From Gordonibacter urolithinfaciens (GTDB lineage: Bacteria; Actinomycetota; Coriobacteriia; Coriobacteriales; Eggerthellaceae): a stretch of 64,000 bases of DNA. This document shows, piece by piece, positions 1 through 53,220 of the stretch (its first letter is position 1; every line of letters begins with the position of its first letter). Below the pieces are notes generated by a model. That model worked only from the letters and a program-made list of their open reading frames with translations. It was not told where the DNA came from and made no database searches. The translations under genes were made by a program, and so were the position numbers. The stretch spans positions 1,116,001-1,180,000 of the forward strand of contig NZ_LT900217.1 of assembly GCF_900199375.1 (NCBI RefSeq), read 5' to 3'.

Positions 1-309
1 ATGAGCATGCAGGCTGCACTGCCTCAGATACGGCCCATCAGCGACTTGCGAACACGGTTGAACGATATCGAGAGTCTGGCGCGCGAGACGCGCGAGCCCA
101 TCATCATGACGAAAAACGGCGCGGCCTCGCTCGTCGTCATCGACAGCGAGGCCTACGACGAGCACTTGCGCCATGAGCGCGCCGTACGCAAGCTACGCGA
201 AGCGGAGATCGAGGAGAAATATCGGCCGGCCGCCATTCCCTTCGACGAAGTGAAGACGCGCGTTGACAAGCTCATCGAATCGGCGGAGCAACTTCATGCG
301 CGAGATTGA
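1..309 (+). CDS. Phd/YefM-family antitoxin
   Basis: This 102-residue protein fits the Phd/YefM antitoxins, which fold around an N-terminal DNA-binding half and neutralise a partner toxin with a disordered C-terminal half. Residues about 12-50 carry the family pattern: a PISDLRTRL stretch, then 'EPIIMTKNGAASLVVID', where the family usually has a PVxITKNGRPxAVLVS type strand. The C-terminal half is charged and helical. It overlaps the following ParE-like gene by 14 bases, the normal antitoxin-first order. The window opens exactly at an ATG, so a start further upstream cannot be excluded. Such pairs usually repress their own promoter, which would lie outside the window. Confidence 0.88.
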   Translation: MSMQAALPQIRPISDLRTRLNDIESLARETREPIIMTKNGAASLVVIDSEAYDEHLRHERAVRKLREAEIEEKYRPAAIPFDEVKTRVDKLIESAEQLHARD

Positions 310-616
310 GTTCAGGCCGCGCGCAAGCGCCGACCTCGACGGCATTCTCGCTTACATCGCGCTCACGTTGAAGTCGCCGCAAGCTGCGCGCGACACCGCC
401 AACGCGATCTTCGCCGCCATCGAGCGCGCGACCGAGATGCCGGAGCTCGGCCAGCCGTTCTTCGACGAGGACCTCGAGCATCCGGCCTACCGGCGCAAGC
501 TCGTGAAGCGCTACTGGGTGTACTACACGTGCACGGACGACACGCTCACTGTGCGCCGCATCTTCCACACGACGCAGGACACCGACTGCTACGGGTTCGA
601 GCTGCTCGACGACTAG
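296..616 (+). CDS. RelE/ParE-family toxin
   Basis: This is a 106-residue RelE/ParE-superfamily toxin. It opens with the typical 'REIEFRPRASADLDGILAYI', followed by helices rich in Ala and Arg. The C-terminal half has the expected basic strand ('RKLVKRYWVYY') and a terminal 'VRRIFHTTQD' strand close to the family's RIxHxRRD pattern. I start it at the ATG at 296, because the longer reading from 263 would lie inside the antitoxin frame without a ribosome site. It overlaps the antitoxin by 14 bases, implying translational coupling. ParE members poison gyrase and RelE members cleave ribosomal mRNA; the sequence alone does not decide between them. Confidence 0.88.
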   Translation: MREIEFRPRASADLDGILAYIALTLKSPQAARDTANAIFAAIERATEMPELGQPFFDEDLEHPAYRRKLVKRYWVYYTCTDDTLTVRRIFHTTQDTDCYGFELLDD

Positions 617-45809: not shown

Positions 45810-46820
45810 CTAACCATTTCTAATTGCATCCAGTCGCTTTCTGTCAAGTAGCAACATCTGAATCAGTCTCCTAACAGCATCATCCAGTAAACAGCAAGCA
45901 AATTGGATGATCCAGTTTTTTCGACTATATTCCGTATAGTCAAACCAAAATCTTCCATCCATAAGCGTCGAAGCAAATTCTTCAATTATTTTTTCAAAAG
46001 CGAGAAAATCTCCATGAGCTATCTTGTTTCTCATCTTGCGAAGCAGGATTGCGCACTCTTCCCTTTCCTTTTTGGAATAGCTATCGCTAATAAATCTAGG
46101 TAACTTTGAGTCAAGTTCACTTTCCTTATTTTTCTCTAGAAATAATTGGCATAGAGAAAATGCTTTCAGTAAATGATACTCATTGTATTCATTATCTTGA
46201 TGGATTGATTTCATAAGATAGTCAAGCAATAGATAGTCATTTGTATTGTGCAAGAAATCATCGAATAACTCACCCCATTTTTTCAAGCTTGCAATACACA
46301 GAGTTGTTTCGTAGCTACTCCAAAACATGCGGTGGGGGTACACTTCATCATGGTTTGATGAGTAAATCCATTGTGGTGTTGGCGCTGGAATAAACTCGTT
46401 TCTCTCTCTAGCCACGAAGTTGATAAAGTCAACAACTTTCTCGGCATAATCCCCTTCGCAAAACCTGCCATCAAAACAGTTCGTTGTCCAGTCAAACATC
46501 GGCATATCCGTGTCACTATAATCGAAGTATATGCAAATCATGCGATCTACGATACTTTGAATACATGTATTCTCGTCAATTTCCCCTGCCAAATCTTGTT
46601 GAGGAAAATACTGTTCATATATACGGCGCAGTCTGTTTTGCTGCTCTACGCCGAGTTTTCGCGCGACTATTTCTGAATGCCGCAGACTTGCTTGCAATTC
46701 CGAACAAAGACCTTCATTCCAATTATTATGTTCATCGTTAGGAAGATTCGAAATATATAGTTTTAGTTTTTCCGAGATGCAGACAGGAGAAATATCTCCT
46801 TGTATATTCAGTACAATCAT
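45810..46820 (-). CDS. Hypothetical protein with HEPN-type RNase motif
   Basis: This protein of about 336 residues is AT-rich in codon use, unlike its chromosomal neighbours. I do not recognise the whole protein. In its C-terminal third, 'LLRKMRNKIAHGDF' gives R-x4-H (Arg266, His271 in the longer numbering), the catalytic motif of HEPN ribonucleases. These act in toxin-antitoxin and phage-abortive systems. The rest is helical with many Trp, Tyr and Asp residues. The ATG at 46820 lies behind GGTGG. It is the only intact gene of the first integrated segment. Confidence 0.7.
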   Translation of the reverse strand: MIVLNIQGDISPVCISEKLKLYISNLPNDEHNNWNEGLCSELQASLRHSEIVARKLGVEQQNRLRRIYEQYFPQQDLAGEIDENTCIQSIVDRMICIYFDYSDTDMPMFDWTTNCFDGRFCEGDYAEKVVDFINFVARERNEFIPAPTPQWIYSSNHDEVYPHRMFWSSYETTLCIASLKKWGELFDDFLHNTNDYLLLDYLMKSIHQDNEYNEYHLLKAFSLCQLFLEKNKESELDSKLPRFISDSYSKKEREECAILLRKMRNKIAHGDFLAFEKIIEEFASTLMDGRFWFDYTEYSRKNWIIQFACCLLDDAVRRLIQMLLLDRKRLDAIRNG

Positions 46821-47027
46821 TGTCACGCCACCAGTTTTTTATCTATTAGAGGAAGCTTAATTCTAGCAGCCACAGCATGATTATAGGTCTATACTGGGTC
46901 GAGAATTACCTATACTTCCCAAGCGATTATCTTACTTATAGAATTCTTAAAATTCGACTCATTTGATTATTCAATTCAGAAATGGTCGATGACCTGTGAT
47001 GATAATCGAAATTGGACACATTTTTCG

Positions 47028-47137
47028 GTAGACATGAGGGGATTCAAGCCCTCGACTCCCACGTTGCGGACGTGATGCCGTCCCAAAGGTACGTACACCA
47101 TCACAATTATTTTAGTAACTAAAGTACCGATGTGTCC
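47028..47137 (-). repeat. Attachment-site repeat, middle degenerate copy
   Basis: The segment shares 'CCCACGTTGCG' and the TCCCAAAGG junction with the left copy. It also shares the inner flank CCATCACAATTATTTTAGTAA and ATGTGTCCTT(C/T)GC, with scattered differences in the tRNA-derived part (GGGATTCAAGCCCTCGACTC). It divides the island into two segments, as expected for two successive integrations. Confidence 0.75.
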
Positions 47138-47315
47138 TTCGCTTGTTATGCGAGACAAAACTTTCTTCGGCCGCCTTCAGGCAAGCATCTTTGAACTCAA
47201 AAACAGTGCGAATGAATCATGAATGAATCATAATGGTCAGATCAACATGATCCTTGCGAATCACAGTTCTATTGTTTCCAAAAAGATGTGCAAGACCGTC
47301 TACAAGGAGGCTTCC

Positions 47316-49937
47316 ATGCCATTTATATCCATCCAACAAGAGGATCTTGCATACACAACCCCGCAAGAGATGTATCAAGACAATAAAATGAAGAGGATAA
47401 AAGGCCTTCTCGACTATCAATCGCACATGATCGAACAGTACATGGATGCAGAAGCATCTCGTTCAATTGCATTTGAATTGCCTACCGGAAGCGGAAAAAC
47501 GCTAATCGGTATGCTCATTGGAGAATTTCGCAGGAGAAAAAACCATGAGCGAGTTCTTTATCTTACCCCAACGAATCAATTGGTAAAACAAGTAGTCGAT
47601 CAGGCAAATAATCAATATGGGTTGAACGCTACTGCATTTTGCGGGTCTCAACGGAATTACGACAGTCAAGATAAGAGCAAATTCCTTGCGTCGGAATCAG
47701 TGGGTGTTACCACATATAGCTCCTTTTTCGCTTCATACAGCTTTTTCGATGATGTAGACATTTTGATAATGGACGACGTTCATTCCAGCGAAGAGCCTAT
47801 TCTTTCAAATTGGTCGATAGATATCCGCAAAGGAGAAATCGCATTTGATGTGATGCGAAGCATCTTGCAAGAATGCCTAGATGAAACGAGCCTCCATTAT
47901 CTAACATCGAATTCTGGAGGGCATGCTGAAATAAGATGGTGCGACCTGCTTCCCGTGGCACTTGCATATGATATTTTGCCAACGATCCAAAAGGAGTTAG
48001 ATGCTTGCTTAAGCAAGGACGAGACTAACTCGGGTAACTTCTACTCCTTTCAAAGGCTTAAAGCCAACCTCCACGCTTGTAACATATATCTGAGCAACCA
48101 AAGGATCCAAATAAGGCCGTGGACAGCGCCAACCGAAACATTCGAACCTTTCAGAAAAACCAAACAGCGTATCATGATGTCGGCCACCCTTGGCGCAAAT
48201 GGAGAACTTGAAAGAATTACTGGCATCAAGAACATCAAACGACTTCCCGTCGTCGGCGACTGGGACAAAAAGGGATTGGGAAGAAGATTTGTATTACTCC
48301 CTGATCTCGCGCTAAGCAGTAAAGATCACGACAATATCCTGCTTAACCTGCATTCCGTATCAAAACGCAGCGTCGTATTAACTCCAACTGACAAAGAGGC
48401 TGGACGGGTAGCTGATCTCTTCCGCTCGAATATGCCTAATACTTCTATCTTTACCGCAAGCGATATAATTGATTCAAAAAACTCTTTTACCTCAAGCAGC
48501 GACGCCGTAATCGCTCTCGCTAATCGCTTCGACGGTATAGACTTCCCTGACGATGAATGCAGGATGTTGTTTATCGTCGATTTGCCAAAAGTCGTCAATT
48601 TGCAAGAAAACTTCTTAGTTTCATGCATGAATGCCTCAATTCTCTACGAAGAACGAATTCGCACCCGCATTATCCAAGCTTTAGGAAGATGTACGAGAAA
48701 TGGAAGCGATTTCTCAGCTGTATGCATCATGGGAACGTCGATTCTTAAGGACTTGACAAGCGAGACACGAATAGCGTCACTCAACCCAGAACTTCGTGCG
48801 GAACTCGAATATGGCGTTAGGAATTCTAAAGAATATTCGTCCATTGCCGAGATGTCATCTGACTTAGCTGCGTTCCTCAATAGAGACAAATCGTGGGAAA
48901 TAGCAGAAGACGGAATTGTGACTTTAAGAGACTCATTCAAAGAAAAAGAAGATGCGGCCGCCAACCAAATAAAAGATATTATGCTTGGCGCAGCGAAAAA
49001 CGAAGTGGATTACTTATACGCATTATGGAAAGGCGATTTTGAATCAGCTTTCAGTCTTGCCTCGAATATTGCGGATGCACTTAACGCCCCTTCTCTTGCT
49101 GGATATCGATGCTACTGGAACGTCTGTGCGGGCAACATGGCTTCCATACTGGCGAAGCAGGGGATCGACGGATACCAAAGTTCAGGTATCGATCGATACA
49201 AAAAGGCAGCTCAAAACAATAGCAATCTTCGTTGGCTTCCGCTTTTACCACACCGAGTATTTGGCGATCAAAGTGCTGATATATCGGAAGATTTTTTCTG
49301 TGACACTATCGAAGCCATAGAAGAAATCATGACAAACTGTTCTTCAACCACTAAATACGCACAACTAATAGAGGGAATAAAACTGGAGCTAGCCTCTATT
49401 GATGGAAAAGTTTTTGAAGCCGGGCACGAGAAGCTTGGCACCGTTCTAGGCTTCACATCAAAAAACTCCAGCGAAAATGGCGCTCCAGACCCGTATTGGA
49501 TCGTCAATCCCAAGCTATGCCTTGTTGCCGAAGATAAAATCTACTCAGAGGACACCGATGGAAATGTTGAAAAATCAATTCCTCTTGATGATGTTCGACA
49601 AGCCATTCCTCATGCCGACTGGATTCGCAAGAATGAAAAGGAATTGCTTCCGGAGGCAGAAATAGTAACTGTTTTTGTTTCTAACTCGCAGCTTCTAGAA
49701 GCAAGTGCGAGCCACGCAACAGGTGGCCTTTTCTACCTTAATAGAGAAAGTTTTAAAAAATGGGCCGCTAAGGCACTCGATTGCCTCGTCGACGCTTATC
49801 CCAATTTTATCGAAAAGGGTGATGCGATATGGAGGCAAAACTTGCATCAAGCTATGAATACTGAAGGGGTTCTTCCAATAGATTATATCAACATGATTCG
49901 CTCTAGCCCTTTGTCTGCCTTAGTCAAAACAAATTAG
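47316..49937 (+). CDS. Superfamily 2 DEAD/DEAH-like helicase of an integrated island
   Basis: This 873-residue protein has SF2 helicase motifs in order: Walker A 'LPTGSGKT' (about 56-62), motif II DDVH (about 153-156, a DEAH variant), motif III SAT ('IMMSATLG') and motif VI 'QALGRCTRN'. The last resembles Rad3/XPD-like enzymes. The C-terminal 350 residues have no domain I recognise. The ATG at 47316 is five bases behind AAGGAGG, so the 31 codons upstream are probably leader. It fills the second integrated segment, next to the att repeat. A phage-defence role is plausible by location only. Confidence 0.85.
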   Translation: MPFISIQQEDLAYTTPQEMYQDNKMKRIKGLLDYQSHMIEQYMDAEASRSIAFELPTGSGKTLIGMLIGEFRRRKNHERVLYLTPTNQLVKQVVDQANNQYGLNATAFCGSQRNYDSQDKSKFLASESVGVTTYSSFFASYSFFDDVDILIMDDVHSSEEPILSNWSIDIRKGEIAFDVMRSILQECLDETSLHYLTSNSGGHAEIRWCDLLPVALAYDILPTIQKELDACLSKDETNSGNFYSFQRLKANLHACNIYLSNQRIQIRPWTAPTETFEPFRKTKQRIMMSATLGANGELERITGIKNIKRLPVVGDWDKKGLGRRFVLLPDLALSSKDHDNILLNLHSVSKRSVVLTPTDKEAGRVADLFRSNMPNTSIFTASDIIDSKNSFTSSSDAVIALANRFDGIDFPDDECRMLFIVDLPKVVNLQENFLVSCMNASILYEERIRTRIIQALGRCTRNGSDFSAVCIMGTSILKDLTSETRIASLNPELRAELEYGVRNSKEYSSIAEMSSDLAAFLNRDKSWEIAEDGIVTLRDSFKEKEDAAANQIKDIMLGAAKNEVDYLYALWKGDFESAFSLASNIADALNAPSLAGYRCYWNVCAGNMASILAKQGIDGYQSSGIDRYKKAAQNNSNLRWLPLLPHRVFGDQSADISEDFFCDTIEAIEEIMTNCSSTTKYAQLIEGIKLELASIDGKVFEAGHEKLGTVLGFTSKNSSENGAPDPYWIVNPKLCLVAEDKIYSEDTDGNVEKSIPLDDVRQAIPHADWIRKNEKELLPEAEIVTVFVSNSQLLEASASHATGGLFYLNRESFKKWAAKALDCLVDAYPNFIEKGDAIWRQNLHQAMNTEGVLPIDYINMIRSSPLSALVKTN

Positions 49938-49955
49938 AGGCCAACATTAGGCAAA

Positions 49956-49987
49956 AATGAGCCCTCATCTCATGATGAGGGCTCATT
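49956..49987. terminator. Bidirectional terminator between helicase and tRNA
   Basis: The arms AATGAGCCCTCATC / GATGAGGGCTCATT (14 bp) have a 4-base loop. On the minus strand the stem is followed by TTTTTGCC, giving the relocated tRNA a terminator. Confidence 0.85.
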
Positions 49988-49996
49988 GGGTTTCCG

Positions 49997-50072
49997 TGGT
50001 GGAGATGATGGGATTCGAACCCACGACCCCCACGTTGCGAACGTGATGCTCTCCCAGCTGAGCTACATCCCC
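49997..50072 (-). tRNA. tRNA-Ala (anticodon CGC)
   Basis: These 76 bases include an encoded CCA. The acceptor stem GGGGATG/CATCTCC contains the G3-U70 pair that defines alanine tRNAs. The anticodon loop is TTCGCAA, and the T arm GTGGGTTCGAATCCCAT is normal. Its 3' half is the attachment site for the island to its left. Confidence 0.96.
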
Positions 50073-50177
50073 ACGGGTTATGTGCGCTCTCGCGCGAGGA
50101 CTTATTTTGCCGGTATTGGGGGCGTTTGTCAAATGGGGATTTGAAATGTTCATAGAACGTGCGGGTGTTGGCAGGCG

Positions 50178-50423
50178 CTAGATGCCCTCGCCCTCTTCGG
50201 AGGGATCGGGATCGTCATCGTCGTCGAGGTATTTTAGGATGTCGCCTGGTTCGCATTCGAGGACTTTGCATATGGCGTTGAGCGTGGAAAAGCGGATGGC
50301 CTTGATCTTGCCGGTCTTTATGCGCGACATGTTCACGTTGGTGATGCCGACTTTATCCGCAAGGTCGTTGAGCGACATCTTGCGATCAGCCATGATGCGA
50401 TCCAGATGAAGGATGATGGACAT
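50178..50423 (-). CDS. XRE-family helix-turn-helix regulator
   Basis: This 81-residue protein is a YozG-like XRE regulator ('LNDLADKVGITNVNMSRIKTGKI' and 'LNAICKVLECEPGDILKY') with an acidic tail. It follows the DUF2975 membrane gene by nine bases, a pairing seen in many Gram-positive genomes. Confidence 0.9.
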   Translation of the reverse strand: MSIILHLDRIMADRKMSLNDLADKVGITNVNMSRIKTGKIKAIRFSTLNAICKVLECEPGDILKYLDDDDDPDPSEEGEGI

Positions 50424-50432
50424 CGCTGATGC

Positions 50433-50969
50433 CTAGAGGGTTTCGTCCGAAAACTCTTGTAGAAGGACGCCGTATTGGAATACAAATGAAAACGCAAATA
50501 TAACCGCAGAAGCAACTAGCGGTGCGAAATCAACAGTAATAATTGCACTTCCACTAGTAGAGAGATATCCGGAATTAAGGTTGCCAAGCTGAAACATAAC
50601 TGAACTCGCAGAAAAAACCAGCTCCAGAATTGCATAGATTAGAAGAGCCAGGGCCATTTGTCTTAACCTTCTAACCTGCTTTATTGTAAATGGCGACTCG
50701 CCTTTAGCTGCTTCAGAGAAGATTCCAATCAGTATGATGAACAGTACCGCTATAACTACCCCGCGCATAATGTGCAAAATTATTGGAATGATACCAGATA
50801 CCGATAAATCTCCAGAACTAAAAAAGGTTATTAGCATTGAGCCTATTACAAACAGCCAAAAAACACATATGATGGCAAAAACCATTTTAACAGCCAAACT
50901 AATACCTGCACATACTTTGTTAATGCGCAATAGAGATACTCGTGTCTCATCCACTTCGCTGTTAAACAT
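50433..50969 (-). CDS. DUF2975-family membrane protein
   Basis: This 178-residue protein has four hydrophobic segments. The DUF2975 marker 'GESPFTIKQVRRLRQMALAL' lies in the cytoplasmic loop between TM2 and TM3. Together with the XRE gene behind it, it forms a two-gene unit whose function is not known. Base composition is lower in GC than the core genome, in line with recent arrival near the tRNA island. Confidence 0.85.
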   Translation of the reverse strand: MFNSEVDETRVSLLRINKVCAGISLAVKMVFAIICVFWLFVIGSMLITFFSSGDLSVSGIIPIILHIMRGVVIAVLFIILIGIFSEAAKGESPFTIKQVRRLRQMALALLIYAILELVFSASSVMFQLGNLNSGYLSTSGSAIITVDFAPLVASAVIFAFSFVFQYGVLLQEFSDETL

Positions 50970-51044
50970 TTCCGTTCCAATCCCTTATCGAACTCGTTTT
51001 GAAAATAATACTACCAACCAGATACGACTCATCTGAAAATGCAA

Positions 51045-51070
51045 AGAGCCCCTTCAAAAGAAAGAGCTCT
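51045..51070 (-). terminator. Imperfect hairpin after the small peptide ORF
   Basis: AGAGC and GCTCT arms with partial inner pairing lie about 30 bases past the stop of the 28-codon ORF (minus strand). Confidence 0.4.
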
Positions 51071-51098
51071 CTCATGGATTTCGATTCGACGAAACAAT

Positions 51099-51185
51099 TT
51101 AAATGCCAGGAGCTATGCAAATACCCCCGACAATGCCAATGGGATAGCAAACCGAGCGCGGCTCAACCTCACTGTAAAACAGCAT
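51099..51185 (-). CDS. Candidate RiPP precursor peptide, 28 residues
   Basis: This short ORF starts one base after the radical SAM stop (TGA-T-ATG) and is led by AAAGGAGGTG, one of the best ribosome sites in the window. Residues 1-10 are acidic/basic and leader-like (two Glu and Tyr). The rest is Gly/Ile/Val/Pro-rich with Cys13 and Cys23 ten residues apart, and the last residue is Ile28. Tight coupling to a SPASM enzyme is typical of modified-peptide precursors. No transporter or peptidase is adjacent. Assignment is by context. Confidence 0.6.
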   Translation of the reverse strand: MLFYSEVEPRSVCYPIGIVGGICIAPGI

Positions 51186-51186
51186 A

Positions 51187-52440
51187 TCACACACCTCCTT
51201 TCTTGTTTTCTATTGCGGCGTTCATGGCCGCTCCTAAACGGTCGTAGAACTCTAGGGTCATCGCGCAGTAGGAGTCGGGCGACTCCAGACTGCCCGATGC
51301 GAACAGCGAGCGGGCTCGACAGCCTCCCCCGCAGATTCGCTCGTAACGGCATGTGGCACAGCCCTCGAAGTTGGCGGCATCCAGGGCGCGGCACCGTGCG
51401 GAAACCTCGCTCTCCAGCGCCTCGGCAAGCGTGCCGTCAAAGACGTTGCCCATCGCCAGCTCGGGGCGGTGAAGCATATGGCACGGGTAGACGGTGCCGT
51501 CGGCGGCGATGCTCACGCCACGGTAGCCGGCGCCGCAGCTCCTCTTCACCGTGAGGTTCAGGCCGACGGGGGCGTCCATGAGGGCGAGCGGCTTTCCGCC
51601 GTCCAGCGTGAGGATGCTCGCGCCCAGCTTACGCAGGGCCTCCTCGTCGGGCAACAGGGCGGCCAGCTCGTCGTCGGGCGCGCACGTGAGCAGGCTGAAG
51701 TTCAAAGTAGCGCCCAGGTCTTTCGACAGGCGAACGTATTCGGCCAAATCGTCGATGTTCCTGGCATGCACCGTGGGAATGATGTGGGCCTGGATGCCGG
51801 CGGCTTGAACGGCCTTGACCGCGGCCACCAGCTCGTCGAAGCGCTGCTCTTCCCGAATGTAGGCGGGGGCGGACGCCGAGCAGCCGTCGAACGAGATGGA
51901 GACGCAGTCGACGTTCGGCGCGAGCGCAGCCAGGGCCCCTTCGGCAAGGCAGGTGCCGTTCGAAAGCACGGTGACGGCCTTGATGCCGCAGGTGCGCTTC
52001 GCATAGGCCACAATGTCGGGCAGGTCGTCGCGCAGGAACGGCTCGCCACCCGAGATGATGAGCGTGGCCAGGCCGGCGGCCGTCAGCTCGTCGAGCGCGC
52101 GCTCGATGGCGTCGAGCGGGGCATCGGGCAGGCAGTTGCGCTGGTCGTCATACGAGTAGCAGCCCACACAGTTCAAGTTGCAGCGCTGCGTGACGTGCAG
52201 GTAGGCGGACACCACGGCATCGGCCGGTTTCTCGTCGCTGAAGAACCCGCCGCGCACCAGATGCTCGAGCAGAGCCGCATCGACGGCGGCTACCTCGGTT
52301 TCCGCGACCTCTTCCCGAAGCAGGCGCTCGCACACGTCAGCCCCTTCGGCGGTCAGGCCGATGGCGTATCCCGTATTCATGTTGCCGACCATGGGAATGC
52401 CAGCGAAATCAAACGCGACCACCTGGTCTCTGAACCTCAT
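51187..52440 (-). CDS. Radical SAM/SPASM peptide maturase
   Basis: This 417-residue enzyme has an N-terminal 75-residue PqqD-like recognition domain ('AFDFAGIPMVGNMNTGYAIG'), then the radical SAM motif 'CNLNCVGCYSYD' (CX3CX2C, near 95). A partial barrel ('IISGGEPFLRDD') follows. The C-terminal SPASM domain holds CGAG, YPC, 'CATCRYERICGGGC' and a final Cys, for auxiliary clusters. Such enzymes install thioether or carbon-carbon links in peptides. The ATG at 52440 follows GAGGAGG; the longer frame has none. The 28-codon ORF behind it is the natural substrate candidate. Confidence 0.9.
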   Translation of the reverse strand: MRFRDQVVAFDFAGIPMVGNMNTGYAIGLTAEGADVCERLLREEVAETEVAAVDAALLEHLVRGGFFSDEKPADAVVSAYLHVTQRCNLNCVGCYSYDDQRNCLPDAPLDAIERALDELTAAGLATLIISGGEPFLRDDLPDIVAYAKRTCGIKAVTVLSNGTCLAEGALAALAPNVDCVSISFDGCSASAPAYIREEQRFDELVAAVKAVQAAGIQAHIIPTVHARNIDDLAEYVRLSKDLGATLNFSLLTCAPDDELAALLPDEEALRKLGASILTLDGGKPLALMDAPVGLNLTVKRSCGAGYRGVSIAADGTVYPCHMLHRPELAMGNVFDGTLAEALESEVSARCRALDAANFEGCATCRYERICGGGCRARSLFASGSLESPDSYCAMTLEFYDRLGAAMNAAIENKKGGV

Positions 52441-52876
52441 GGAGCCTCCTCGCGCCTTCCCCCAGCCGCTTGCCGTCTCCAGGAGCAAGCGGCAGATACG
52501 CACCCGTTGTCAACCGTTATTCTATAGGTTCGATTATGCCTTGTCGATCAGTTCAGGCGAAAAGCGCAGTTGCTCAAAAGGGGAATCGAGCCGAACAAGC
52601 CGATGCCGTTCGCTACAACTCGGCTTCCGTTCGCTATTTATCGTTTAATGATTAATGTAGTATGATACATTACCCCAGCAACGCTATCGAGGCGACTCGT
52701 TGTCGCACCGCGACAGCGCGTTCGGCCTCCCGCATCGGAAAGGGGCGATCAAAATGAGATCATGCAAAGAACCCCCCCCCCCCCCCCCCCCCCCCCCCCG
52801 CACCCGGCCGGGTCCTCGGCTCGCTAACCTGCGAGCCCTTGTGTCCAACCACGTTATGGAAAGAGAAGCCACCATC
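52441..52876. other. Intergenic region with long C tract
   Basis: The region separates the divergent radical SAM gene and the small ORF at 52877. It has a possible plus-strand promoter (TTTATC-18-TATGAT, 52636-52665) within an AT-rich patch, then the 28-base C homopolymer. No other gene is apparent. Confidence 0.45.
52772..52799 (+). repeat. 28-base cytosine homopolymer
   Basis: An unbroken run of 28 C residues follows ATGAGATCATGCAAAGAA. It lies in frame in the long upstream extension of the following ORF, where it would encode nine prolines. Such a tract should vary in length between cells, or may mark an assembly uncertainty. Confidence 0.9.
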
Positions 52877-53077
52877 ATGCCCGTTCAGACGAATCCCGAG
52901 ATCGGCGCCGCCGACTTGACCGCCTTCGGCGAAGCCGCAAAAGCGCTGTTCTCCACGGCGGACACTCCCGAAGAAGTAGCCGCTATGCGCGACGAGGTGC
53001 TGCGCCGGATAGCCGAATGCGCCGCTGCCACCCGCCAGAGCATCGCAGAATCCGAGCGCACATCGCACGAAGGTTAA
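52877..53077 (+). CDS. Small helical protein of unknown function
   Basis: This 66-residue protein is Ala/Glu/Arg-rich with two predicted helices and a variable end. I do not recognise a family. I start at the ATG at 52877 behind GGAAAGAGAAG. The same frame runs open upstream through the C tract to 52700, so a longer, slippage-dependent form is possible. A strong terminator follows. Confidence 0.55.
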   Translation: MPVQTNPEIGAADLTAFGEAAKALFSTADTPEEVAAMRDEVLRRIAECAAATRQSIAESERTSHEG

Positions 53078-53093
53078 GCTCGACACCGCATGC

Positions 53094-53130
53094 GGAAGGG
53101 CCCGCTAAGGCAGCGGCCCTTCCCCTTTTT
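53094..53130 (+). terminator. Rho-independent terminator
   Basis: The stem GGAAGGGCC / GGCCCTTCC is followed by CCTTTTT. Confidence 0.88.
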
Positions 53131-53220
53131 CCAGCCGAGGCTTCGTGCTTGCCTGCTGCAGCGTTGCACACCGATCCGGATCAGCCTTCCAGCAGGGGGC
53201 CTTTGGCCTATACTGGGAGC

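Follow-up and report, generated by a model that had tools for sequence, protein, structure and literature searches.

We examined a 64,000-nucleotide (nt) stretch of the Gordonibacter urolithinfaciens genome (contig NZ_LT900217.1, positions 1,116,001 to 1,180,000), referred to here as the window, in which four genes follow one another on the minus strand. They encode a radical S-adenosylmethionine (SAM) enzyme with a SPASM domain, a peptide of 28 codons, a membrane protein and a small helix-turn-helix (HTH) protein. An initial annotation, made from the sequence alone, had described the first two as a minimal peptide-modification locus. The features of the locus are as follows.

52652-52637, minus strand: operator-like element ATCATTAAACGATAAA, about 200 nt 5' of the enzyme start codon
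52547-52519, minus strand: promoter-like TCGACA-N17-TAGAAT, from a consensus scan only
52440-51187, minus strand: predicted radical SAM/SPASM peptide maturase, 417 amino acids (aa), ATG at 52440, Pfam PF04055 and PF13186
51201-51192, minus strand: ribosome-binding site AAAGGAGGTG of the peptide gene, inside the last enzyme codons, by direct reading
51185-51099, minus strand: precursor peptide gene, 28 codons, product MLFYSEVEPRSVCYPIGIVGGICIAPGI, recurring near the enzyme in relatives
50969-50433, minus strand: DUF2975-like four-helix membrane protein, 178 aa, PF11188 below threshold, AlphaFold2 model
50423-50178, minus strand: HTH_26 (Cro/CI type) regulator, 81 aa, PF13443

On the minus strand, the enzyme gene ends in ...AAA AAA GGA GGT GTG TGA, followed by a single T and then by ATG CTG TTT of the peptide gene. 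This confirms the TGA-T-ATG coupling noted in the initial annotation, as well as its short peptide gene with two cysteines ten apart, which are Cys13 and Cys23 of the 28 residues.

The enzyme resembles radical SAM peptide maturases

Using a profile built from 36 enzymes and a threshold of E <= 1e-80, we found 72 matches in 67 of 396 Coriobacteriia genomes and 25 of 153 genera, the window's own counted. Bacillota relatives are rare at the same threshold (2 of 392 genomes in one order and 3 of 398 in one phylum, seeds counted). The named relatives at 79-96% identity are Gordonibacter records, and the window's genome (3.29 Mb, one contig) holds a single copy of the enzyme, its other four matches being only 26-30% identical. 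Three homologues of 26-30% identity (L062, L063 and L065) were excluded from the family because their neighbours differ. They adjoin a different conserved small protein (cluster 27) and perhaps represent another modified-peptide system.

The radical SAM motif CX3CX2C (C87/C91/C94) is invariant in 36 of 36 homologues, as are the SPASM cysteines C302-X12-G315-X4-C320, C361, C364, C370, C374 and C392, and both PF04055 and PF13186 score above their cut-offs. The seven-cysteine SPASM formula is CX9-15GX4C...CX2CX5CX3C...C. In an AlphaFold2 model with a mean predicted local distance difference test (pLDDT) score of 92.5, residues 7-63 form three consecutive strands followed by three helices, ahead of the radical SAM barrel and the SPASM domain. 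Three strands and three helices are the layout of a PqqD-like domain. The best structural match of the model is CteB (Z 29.1, root-mean-square deviation 7.0, 378 residues aligned, span 5..408), which is also the top match by sequence in the Protein Data Bank (PDB), and anSME, ChlB, SuiB, PqqE, TigE and SkfB come after it. Together, the predicted fold and the CteB alignment, which begins at residue 5, bear out the PqqD-like domain that the initial annotation placed on the enzyme; the domain has no Pfam match in the enzyme and is not called by the sequence libraries.

CteB is a SCIFF maturase, and its PDB entries concern thioether formation. Its structural match (PDB 5WHY and 5WGG) covers nearly the whole chain, including the recognition domain, but at only 19% identity. 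TigE (PDB 8VPO; PMC9062424) similarly shares the radical SAM/SPASM fold with an N-terminal domain and aligns over 1..410 with a Z of 23.4, but it is 14% identical. A named family for the enzyme was considered and set aside: at E <= 1 it matches 82 NCBIfam models, and of the 25 among the matches listed not one reaches its cut-off. StsB, which presumably belongs to the same family as GggB, is the model with the best E-value for the window enzyme and the one that most members match at the best E-value; both StsB and WgkB match 36 of 36 members at E <= 1e-20. The curated StsB cut-off (NF045574) is missed by the window enzyme, with 121.7 bits against 625.

A short precursor with a cysteine core accompanies the enzyme

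We searched around the 72 loci for ATG-started peptides of 18-60 residues that begin with MLF, have a ribosome-binding site and contain C.{2,8}G, on the enzyme's strand and at most 300 nt after or 1300 nt before the enzyme. This pattern was fixed after a first look at other loci and loosened once; the stricter C.{2,3}G gave 50 of 72. Such a peptide lies near the enzyme in 64 of 72 loci (the window included), versus 2 of 720 dinucleotide shuffles, and in 0 of 72 loci on the opposite strand. The initial annotation had named absence or breakage of the short open reading frame in close enzyme homologues as the observation that would tell against it; the frame is kept in these 64 loci and the claim stands. 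Among the eight loci missed, L131 encodes an MLF peptide of 64 residues, L129 and L130 have an MQF variant that starts with GTG, and L134 retains a frameshifted remnant, while L101 sits at the edge of a contig and L120 is probably truncated (684 bases upstream). Only L082 and L094 truly lack the peptide, and both have also lost the membrane protein and kept the HTH gene.

The 64 loci yield 65 distinct peptides of 21-58 residues. A length of 28 residues, as first proposed, is therefore correct for the window allele and does not hold as a general size, since precursors beside the enzyme range from 21 to 64 residues. A two-Cys core, C-x-x-[ILV]-G-x(3-5)-C-x-x-x-G, fits 42 of the 65, with 12 residues before the first core Cys in 37 of these 42. 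The remaining 23 have a one-Cys core, C-x-x-[IVF]-x5-G, in which Ile or Val precedes the Gly in every case (23 of 23), leaving no peptide outside both patterns. MLF and a Cys followed by Gly were demanded by the search, but the finer core patterns were not. The repeats of TigB, by comparison, are not known to have a Cys pattern. Three positions past the second Cys, the two-Cys peptides have Ile (17), Val (8), Pro (7) or other residues (10), and this mixture makes a second ring less certain. Two peptides of the one-Cys set carry extra Cys (MLFESMNCACC...), and none has six. They thus differ from SCIFF ranthipeptides, whose precursors have six cysteines in 45 residues according to PMC7738495, in having one or two core cysteines.

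We compared the 28-residue precursor with known precursor families, and no NCBIfam or Pfam model matches it at E <= 1, in agreement with the initial annotation, which had not recognised its class. Precursors of this kind could escape gene callers with length limits. Outside Coriobacteriia, peptides were found in two Thermoanaerobacter records and one Clostridium record, one copy each, and one Bacillota genome has two ML[IL] variants; no convincing peptide was seen in L059, L142 or L143. In a Lachnospiraceae record (L035, 7287-7754), four differing MLF precursor genes stand in tandem after one enzyme and are followed by ABC-transporter-like genes.

Streptosactin (GggA/GggB) offers a close parallel for the spacing of the core. 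It contains two unnested thioethers, Cys25-Ser28 and Cys31-Gly34, each from Cys to residue i+3 (PMC8172795, one passage of which gives Cys15 for Cys25), and the C-x-x-[ILV] spacing matches these links. By analogy, this suggests the same ring size with an Ile or Val acceptor. The two systems differ in that residue i+3 of the first Cys is Ile, Val or Leu here, and in that the MLF leader, the DUF2975-like protein and HTH_26 stand where the streptosactin locus, as drawn in that review (PMC8172795), has a protease and other regulators.

The linkage, the invariant cysteines, the predicted fold and the CteB alignment give good support to a peptide-modification locus with an N-terminal recognition domain, as the initial annotation had proposed. 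It is near certain that the peptide is the substrate of the enzyme, and thioether formation by the enzyme is quite likely. From the sequences, we infer that the enzyme would form crosslinks in the peptide, with a loss of 2 Da for each.

A membrane protein and a regulator belong to the locus

On the same strand as the enzyme, the DUF2975-like protein is linked in 66 of 72 loci, the HTH_26 regulator in 67 and both in 65. Four of the other loci are short of flank (L098, L101, L118 and L128), L082 and L094 have the HTH gene only, and L123 has neither. Thus, the view of the locus as a minimal pair of enzyme and peptide did not hold, and it is further weakened by peptide and membrane-protein genes that occur without a nearby enzyme gene.

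The membrane protein falls below the Pfam DUF2975 gathering score (PF11188, 20.1 versus 27 bits), hence the label DUF2975-like, while the regulator is well above the HTH_26 cut-off (PF13443, 81.1 versus 22 bits). The membrane protein has two sequence subgroups, which prove related when their profiles are compared (hhalign probability 99.2, E 6e-20), and the AlphaFold2 model has four helices (pLDDT 81.5). Among 17 aligned membrane proteins, and with inner and outer loops assigned by ourselves, conservation is 0.75 in the inner loop, 0.82 in transmembrane helix 4 and 0.90 at the C-terminus, in contrast to 0.30 and 0.41 in the outer loops. DUF2975 proteins of other phyla were found in 5 of 14 control genomes, where their genes are presumably also paired with HTH_26.

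Peptide and membrane protein vary as a block between species

We compared alleles between species, with one genome per species, using the 61 loci that have all four genes. Ten pairs have enzymes at least 93% identical; they share loci and are not independent. In seven of the ten (enzyme 93-97%), the membrane protein is only 44-77% and the peptide 59-93% identical, whereas the regulator is 84-98% identical. The remaining three keep the block, with membrane proteins 85, 94 and 98% identical. In L025/L026, for example, identities are 96% (enzyme), 97% (regulator), 63% (peptide) and 44% (membrane protein), and in L075/L076 they are 97, 98, 67 and 58%, respectively.

The divergence extends to sites that do not alter protein. 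In the seven divergent pairs, synonymous divergence (dS) is 0.19-0.44 for the enzyme, but for the membrane protein it is off scale in four and 1.45-2.67 in three. The non-coding spacer between the peptide and membrane-protein genes is 54-59% identical in six of these pairs and 71% in L074/L075, versus 96% in the control same-allele pair L080/L081, in which the membrane-protein dS is 0.15. Such synonymous and non-coding divergence between better-kept genes indicates that old alleles have been swapped in, and not just that the protein changes quickly.

Across 17 close loci, which we chose ourselves, peptide distance tracks membrane-protein distance when enzyme and regulator are allowed for (partial Mantel r 0.64, p 0.0005, 2000 permutations), and it does not track the regulator (-0.12) or the enzyme (0.08). 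We consider it fairly likely that the membrane protein recognises the peptide in an allele-matched manner. A polymorphic block with conserved flanks, of the kind that marks agr and ComQXPA loci, is thus found here between species. In Bacillus subtilis, pherotypes are defined by variation in comQ, comX and the 5' end of comP (PMC6334282), and PMC6834553 gives agrB to agrC as the hypervariable region of agr. As in those loci, the peptide and a sensor part form the polymorphic block beside conserved output genes. Unlike them, the locus has no histidine kinase or response regulator but a four-helix protein of 178 aa together with an HTH protein of 81 aa, its peptide is a predicted radical SAM product, and its maturase is conserved where comQ is variable.

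Peptide cassettes without an enzyme gene occur in enzyme-bearing genomes

Searching 296 Coriobacteriia genomes, we found the membrane protein in 87 (E <= 1e-6) and the enzyme in 52. We examined 44 stretches, 43 of them around membrane-protein matches, mostly away from the enzyme and picked non-randomly, and one (L163) for its motif. Of 13 orphan membrane-protein loci (E <= 1e-20) in genomes that carry the enzyme, nine have an MLF peptide of their own immediately ahead of the membrane-protein gene, and in seven of these nine an HTH gene directly follows that gene. At the same threshold, none of 15 orphan loci in enzyme-free genomes has a peptide (Fisher p 1e-4, or 0.001 if a pattern hit in L181 is counted, which we discounted because it lies inside a longer open frame). 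Cassettes of peptide and membrane protein without an enzyme gene were therefore found only in genomes that have the enzyme elsewhere. One genome (G179) has four different peptides, and in another (G196) the enzyme locus L082 has lost peptide and membrane protein while an orphan pair is present at L160. These results together indicate that the enzyme most likely acts in trans and that the mobile unit consists of peptide and membrane protein, in most cases together with the regulator.

In L155 (5713-8165), a protein that resembles a site-specific recombinase by motif lies with other genes between the main cassette and a second cassette of peptide, membrane protein and HTH genes belonging to the same genome.

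An operator-like element precedes close Eggerthellaceae enzyme genes

Allowing two mismatches, ATCATWAAACRWTAAA lies 5' of 17 of 18 close Eggerthellaceae enzyme genes, all but L066, with 13 exact copies, versus one of 360 base shuffles, the pattern having been derived from some of the same loci. It is positioned 120-241 nt upstream of the enzyme match. The element is embedded in TTTATCATAAA in 11 loci and in TTAATCATTAA in L067 and L069; judged by sequence, this difference is a symmetrical change, as would be expected of a dimer site. The window's promoter-like stretch can also be read upstream in L067-L070. A palindromic operator common to all loci was sought and not found, as only the Eggerthellaceae element stood out.

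The element also occurs about 45 nt before the assumed TTG start of a common membrane protein beside three orphan cassettes, as follows.

L156 5229-5891, L154 4392-5051, L157 5702-6367: membrane protein of about 220 aa, no Pfam match above cut-off

In the window, the sole consensus hit of an intrinsic terminator scan is upstream of the operon, and in an Rfam scan of 49900-53200 only a transfer RNA (tRNA) reaches its score.

A proposed self-recognition system and its alternatives

On balance, we lean towards a self-recognition system in which a ribosomally synthesised and post-translationally modified peptide (RiPP) of the thioether type is recognised by a membrane partner matched to its allele, and this partner acts on the regulator. 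In such a system, the RiPP recognition element domain of the enzyme would bind the N-terminal MLF segment of the peptide, and Cys13, probably with Cys23, would be thioether-linked to nearby residues, most likely at i+3 (Ile for Cys13). Conservation and the enzyme's relatives point to small unnested rings. The outward parts of the DUF2975-like protein would recognise the modified product, assumed to leave the cell by a general route, in an allele-specific manner, and the protein's conserved inner loop and C-terminus may act on the HTH_26 regulator. The regulator, in turn, would control the operon through the operator upstream of the enzyme. As gene content suggests, one enzyme could serve several cassettes of peptide and membrane protein per genome. 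We tentatively extend this to a pheromone system of gut Coriobacteriia, in which a shared maturase crosslinks a peptide encoded by as few as 21 codons, a DUF2975-like receptor frees or restrains the HTH regulator, allele types are swapped as units between strains and enzyme-free cassettes give one cell extra channels. As judged from the sequences, the constant sensor-like half and the paired regulator would favour signalling in the present locus.

Several observations weigh against a self-recognition system. Between the window and the G. pamelaeae record (L023), where enzyme and regulator are 96 and 94% identical, the peptide remains 89% alike despite a membrane protein at 59%. The flanks are not perfectly constant, as regulator dS is 0.25-1.01 in the seven divergent pairs and the 200 nt 5' of the enzyme are 51-85% identical, varying least between the window and L023 (85%) and in L025/L026 (83%). 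The 23 one-Cys loci show no correlation between peptide and membrane protein (r -0.07). Among the 38 two-Cys loci this correlation, at 0.21, is lower than that of the peptide with the regulator (0.31) or the enzyme (0.26), and across all 61 loci, at 0.17, it is no stronger than for other gene pairs (0.18-0.23). One Eggerthellaceae gene found as both L016 and L123 (L016, 288-2715) has two MLF peptides and neither a membrane protein nor an HTH gene, with an ABC-type ATPase gene downstream in their place. No PDB entry matches the membrane-protein model at E <= 0.001. DUF2975/HTH pairs are common without a peptide and so serve other purposes as well: they account for 34 of the 51 membrane-protein records from the 43 stretches (where some genes are recorded in pieces and one record is a main cassette), and for 20 of the 22 from enzyme-free genomes. 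ATCATWAAACRWTAAA is confined to close Eggerthellaceae, with none in 54 other loci, and that the HTH protein binds this element is a guess.

The chief rival, although we consider it rather unlikely, is a bacteriocin with immunity. In that case the peptide, once modified, would kill close relatives, while the producer would be protected by its DUF2975-like protein and the regulator would adjust this immunity. The arrangement resembles SdpC/SdpI/SdpR, a peptide, a small membrane protein and a small repressor-type regulator, in which the membrane protein presumably binds both of the others; the Sdp proteins are of other families by name and involve no radical SAM step. Toxin and immunity genes likewise diversify together. 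In Bacillota relatives, peptide and enzyme stand beside genes that are ABC-transporter-like by motif, in L058 also with a CAAX-protease-like protein, and such neighbours resemble known antimicrobial sactipeptide clusters. These neighbours, together with the ATPase of L016/L123 in Coriobacteriia, favour killing or transport in those loci. Moreover, the only ATCATWAAACRWTAAA site within one mismatch in the window's genome is the locus's own, so no wider regulon is visible. Against a bacteriocin, membrane protein and regulator occur nearly always together (65 of 72), and also without a peptide, which suits sensing, and the pattern of varied outer and conserved inner parts is more like a receptor with constant output.

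The same allele patterns bear on two further explanations, both of which we hold less probable than a bacteriocin. It is improbable that the membrane protein simply evolves fast under weak constraint, functionally unmatched to the peptide. It is the most divergent of the four genes in nine of the ten closest pairs (all but L112/L115), and its correlation with the peptide appears only in the close set, but its C-terminus is highly conserved, and the replacement of spacer and synonymous sites, with normal rates in the same-allele pair L080/L081, argues for allele replacement instead. Most improbable is a cofactor or housekeeping peptide, as in PQQ or mycofactocin, or an Ile-directed change like the TigE cyclopropyl reaction, with neighbours that only regulate. 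The enzyme does count PqqE, mycofactocin and TigE enzymes among its relatives by sequence or structure, Ile/Val-Gly pairs are conserved, and precursors can be as short as 21 residues. However, a cofactor precursor should not have divergent alleles beside a conserved enzyme, nor several different copies per genome, and a core Cys is present in 65 of 65 peptides, although the search demanded one.

Relation to known systems

Eggerthella, Gordonibacter and related bacteria shape how drugs and polyphenols are metabolised in the gut, and to our knowledge almost nothing has been reported of peptide communication or allele-specific killing among them. Radical SAM RiPPs and polymorphic peptide-receptor loci are each of a known kind. 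In the open-access literature, we found no description of their combination, of this precursor class or of a DUF2975/HTH partner, and work on DUF2975 there concerns other subjects, judging by titles, with nothing linking it to radical SAM enzymes. PMC9062424 reports 22 unpublished radical SAM pathways, partly in figures and supplements, and the present family may be among them. In the parts of PMC4289311 that concern these organisms, Eggerthella is named only for precursors of the Nif11/nitrile-hydratase type. If true, a pheromone role for the modified peptide would give DUF2975 proteins a ligand and a function, along with a first hypothesis for what DUF2975/HTH_26 pairs sense. The locus lends itself to testing with few components: a single enzyme, a substrate of 28 residues whose change in mass is predicted, a candidate receptor that comes in allele types, and a candidate operator.

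Neighbouring features

A run of 28 C lies at 52772-52799, 332 nt upstream of the enzyme start and between divergent genes; it is possibly a phase-variable tract or a sign of assembly trouble. In the G. pamelaeae record, a run of N occupies the stretch 345-522 nt upstream of the enzyme.

At 47027-50072, direct repeats of 59 nt (83% alike) flank a 904-aa DEAD/helicase protein (PADLOC PDC-S28, E 2e-96), and the second repeat overlaps a tRNA gene (50000-50072, minus strand). From its sequence, this resembles a small integrated element, a candidate defence island made up of a single gene. The 904-aa protein has a close homologue beside the cassette of L028. Adjoining the repeat-flanked element, 45810-46826 encodes a 338-aa protein with no Pfam or PADLOC match, which also occurs near the L028 cassette.

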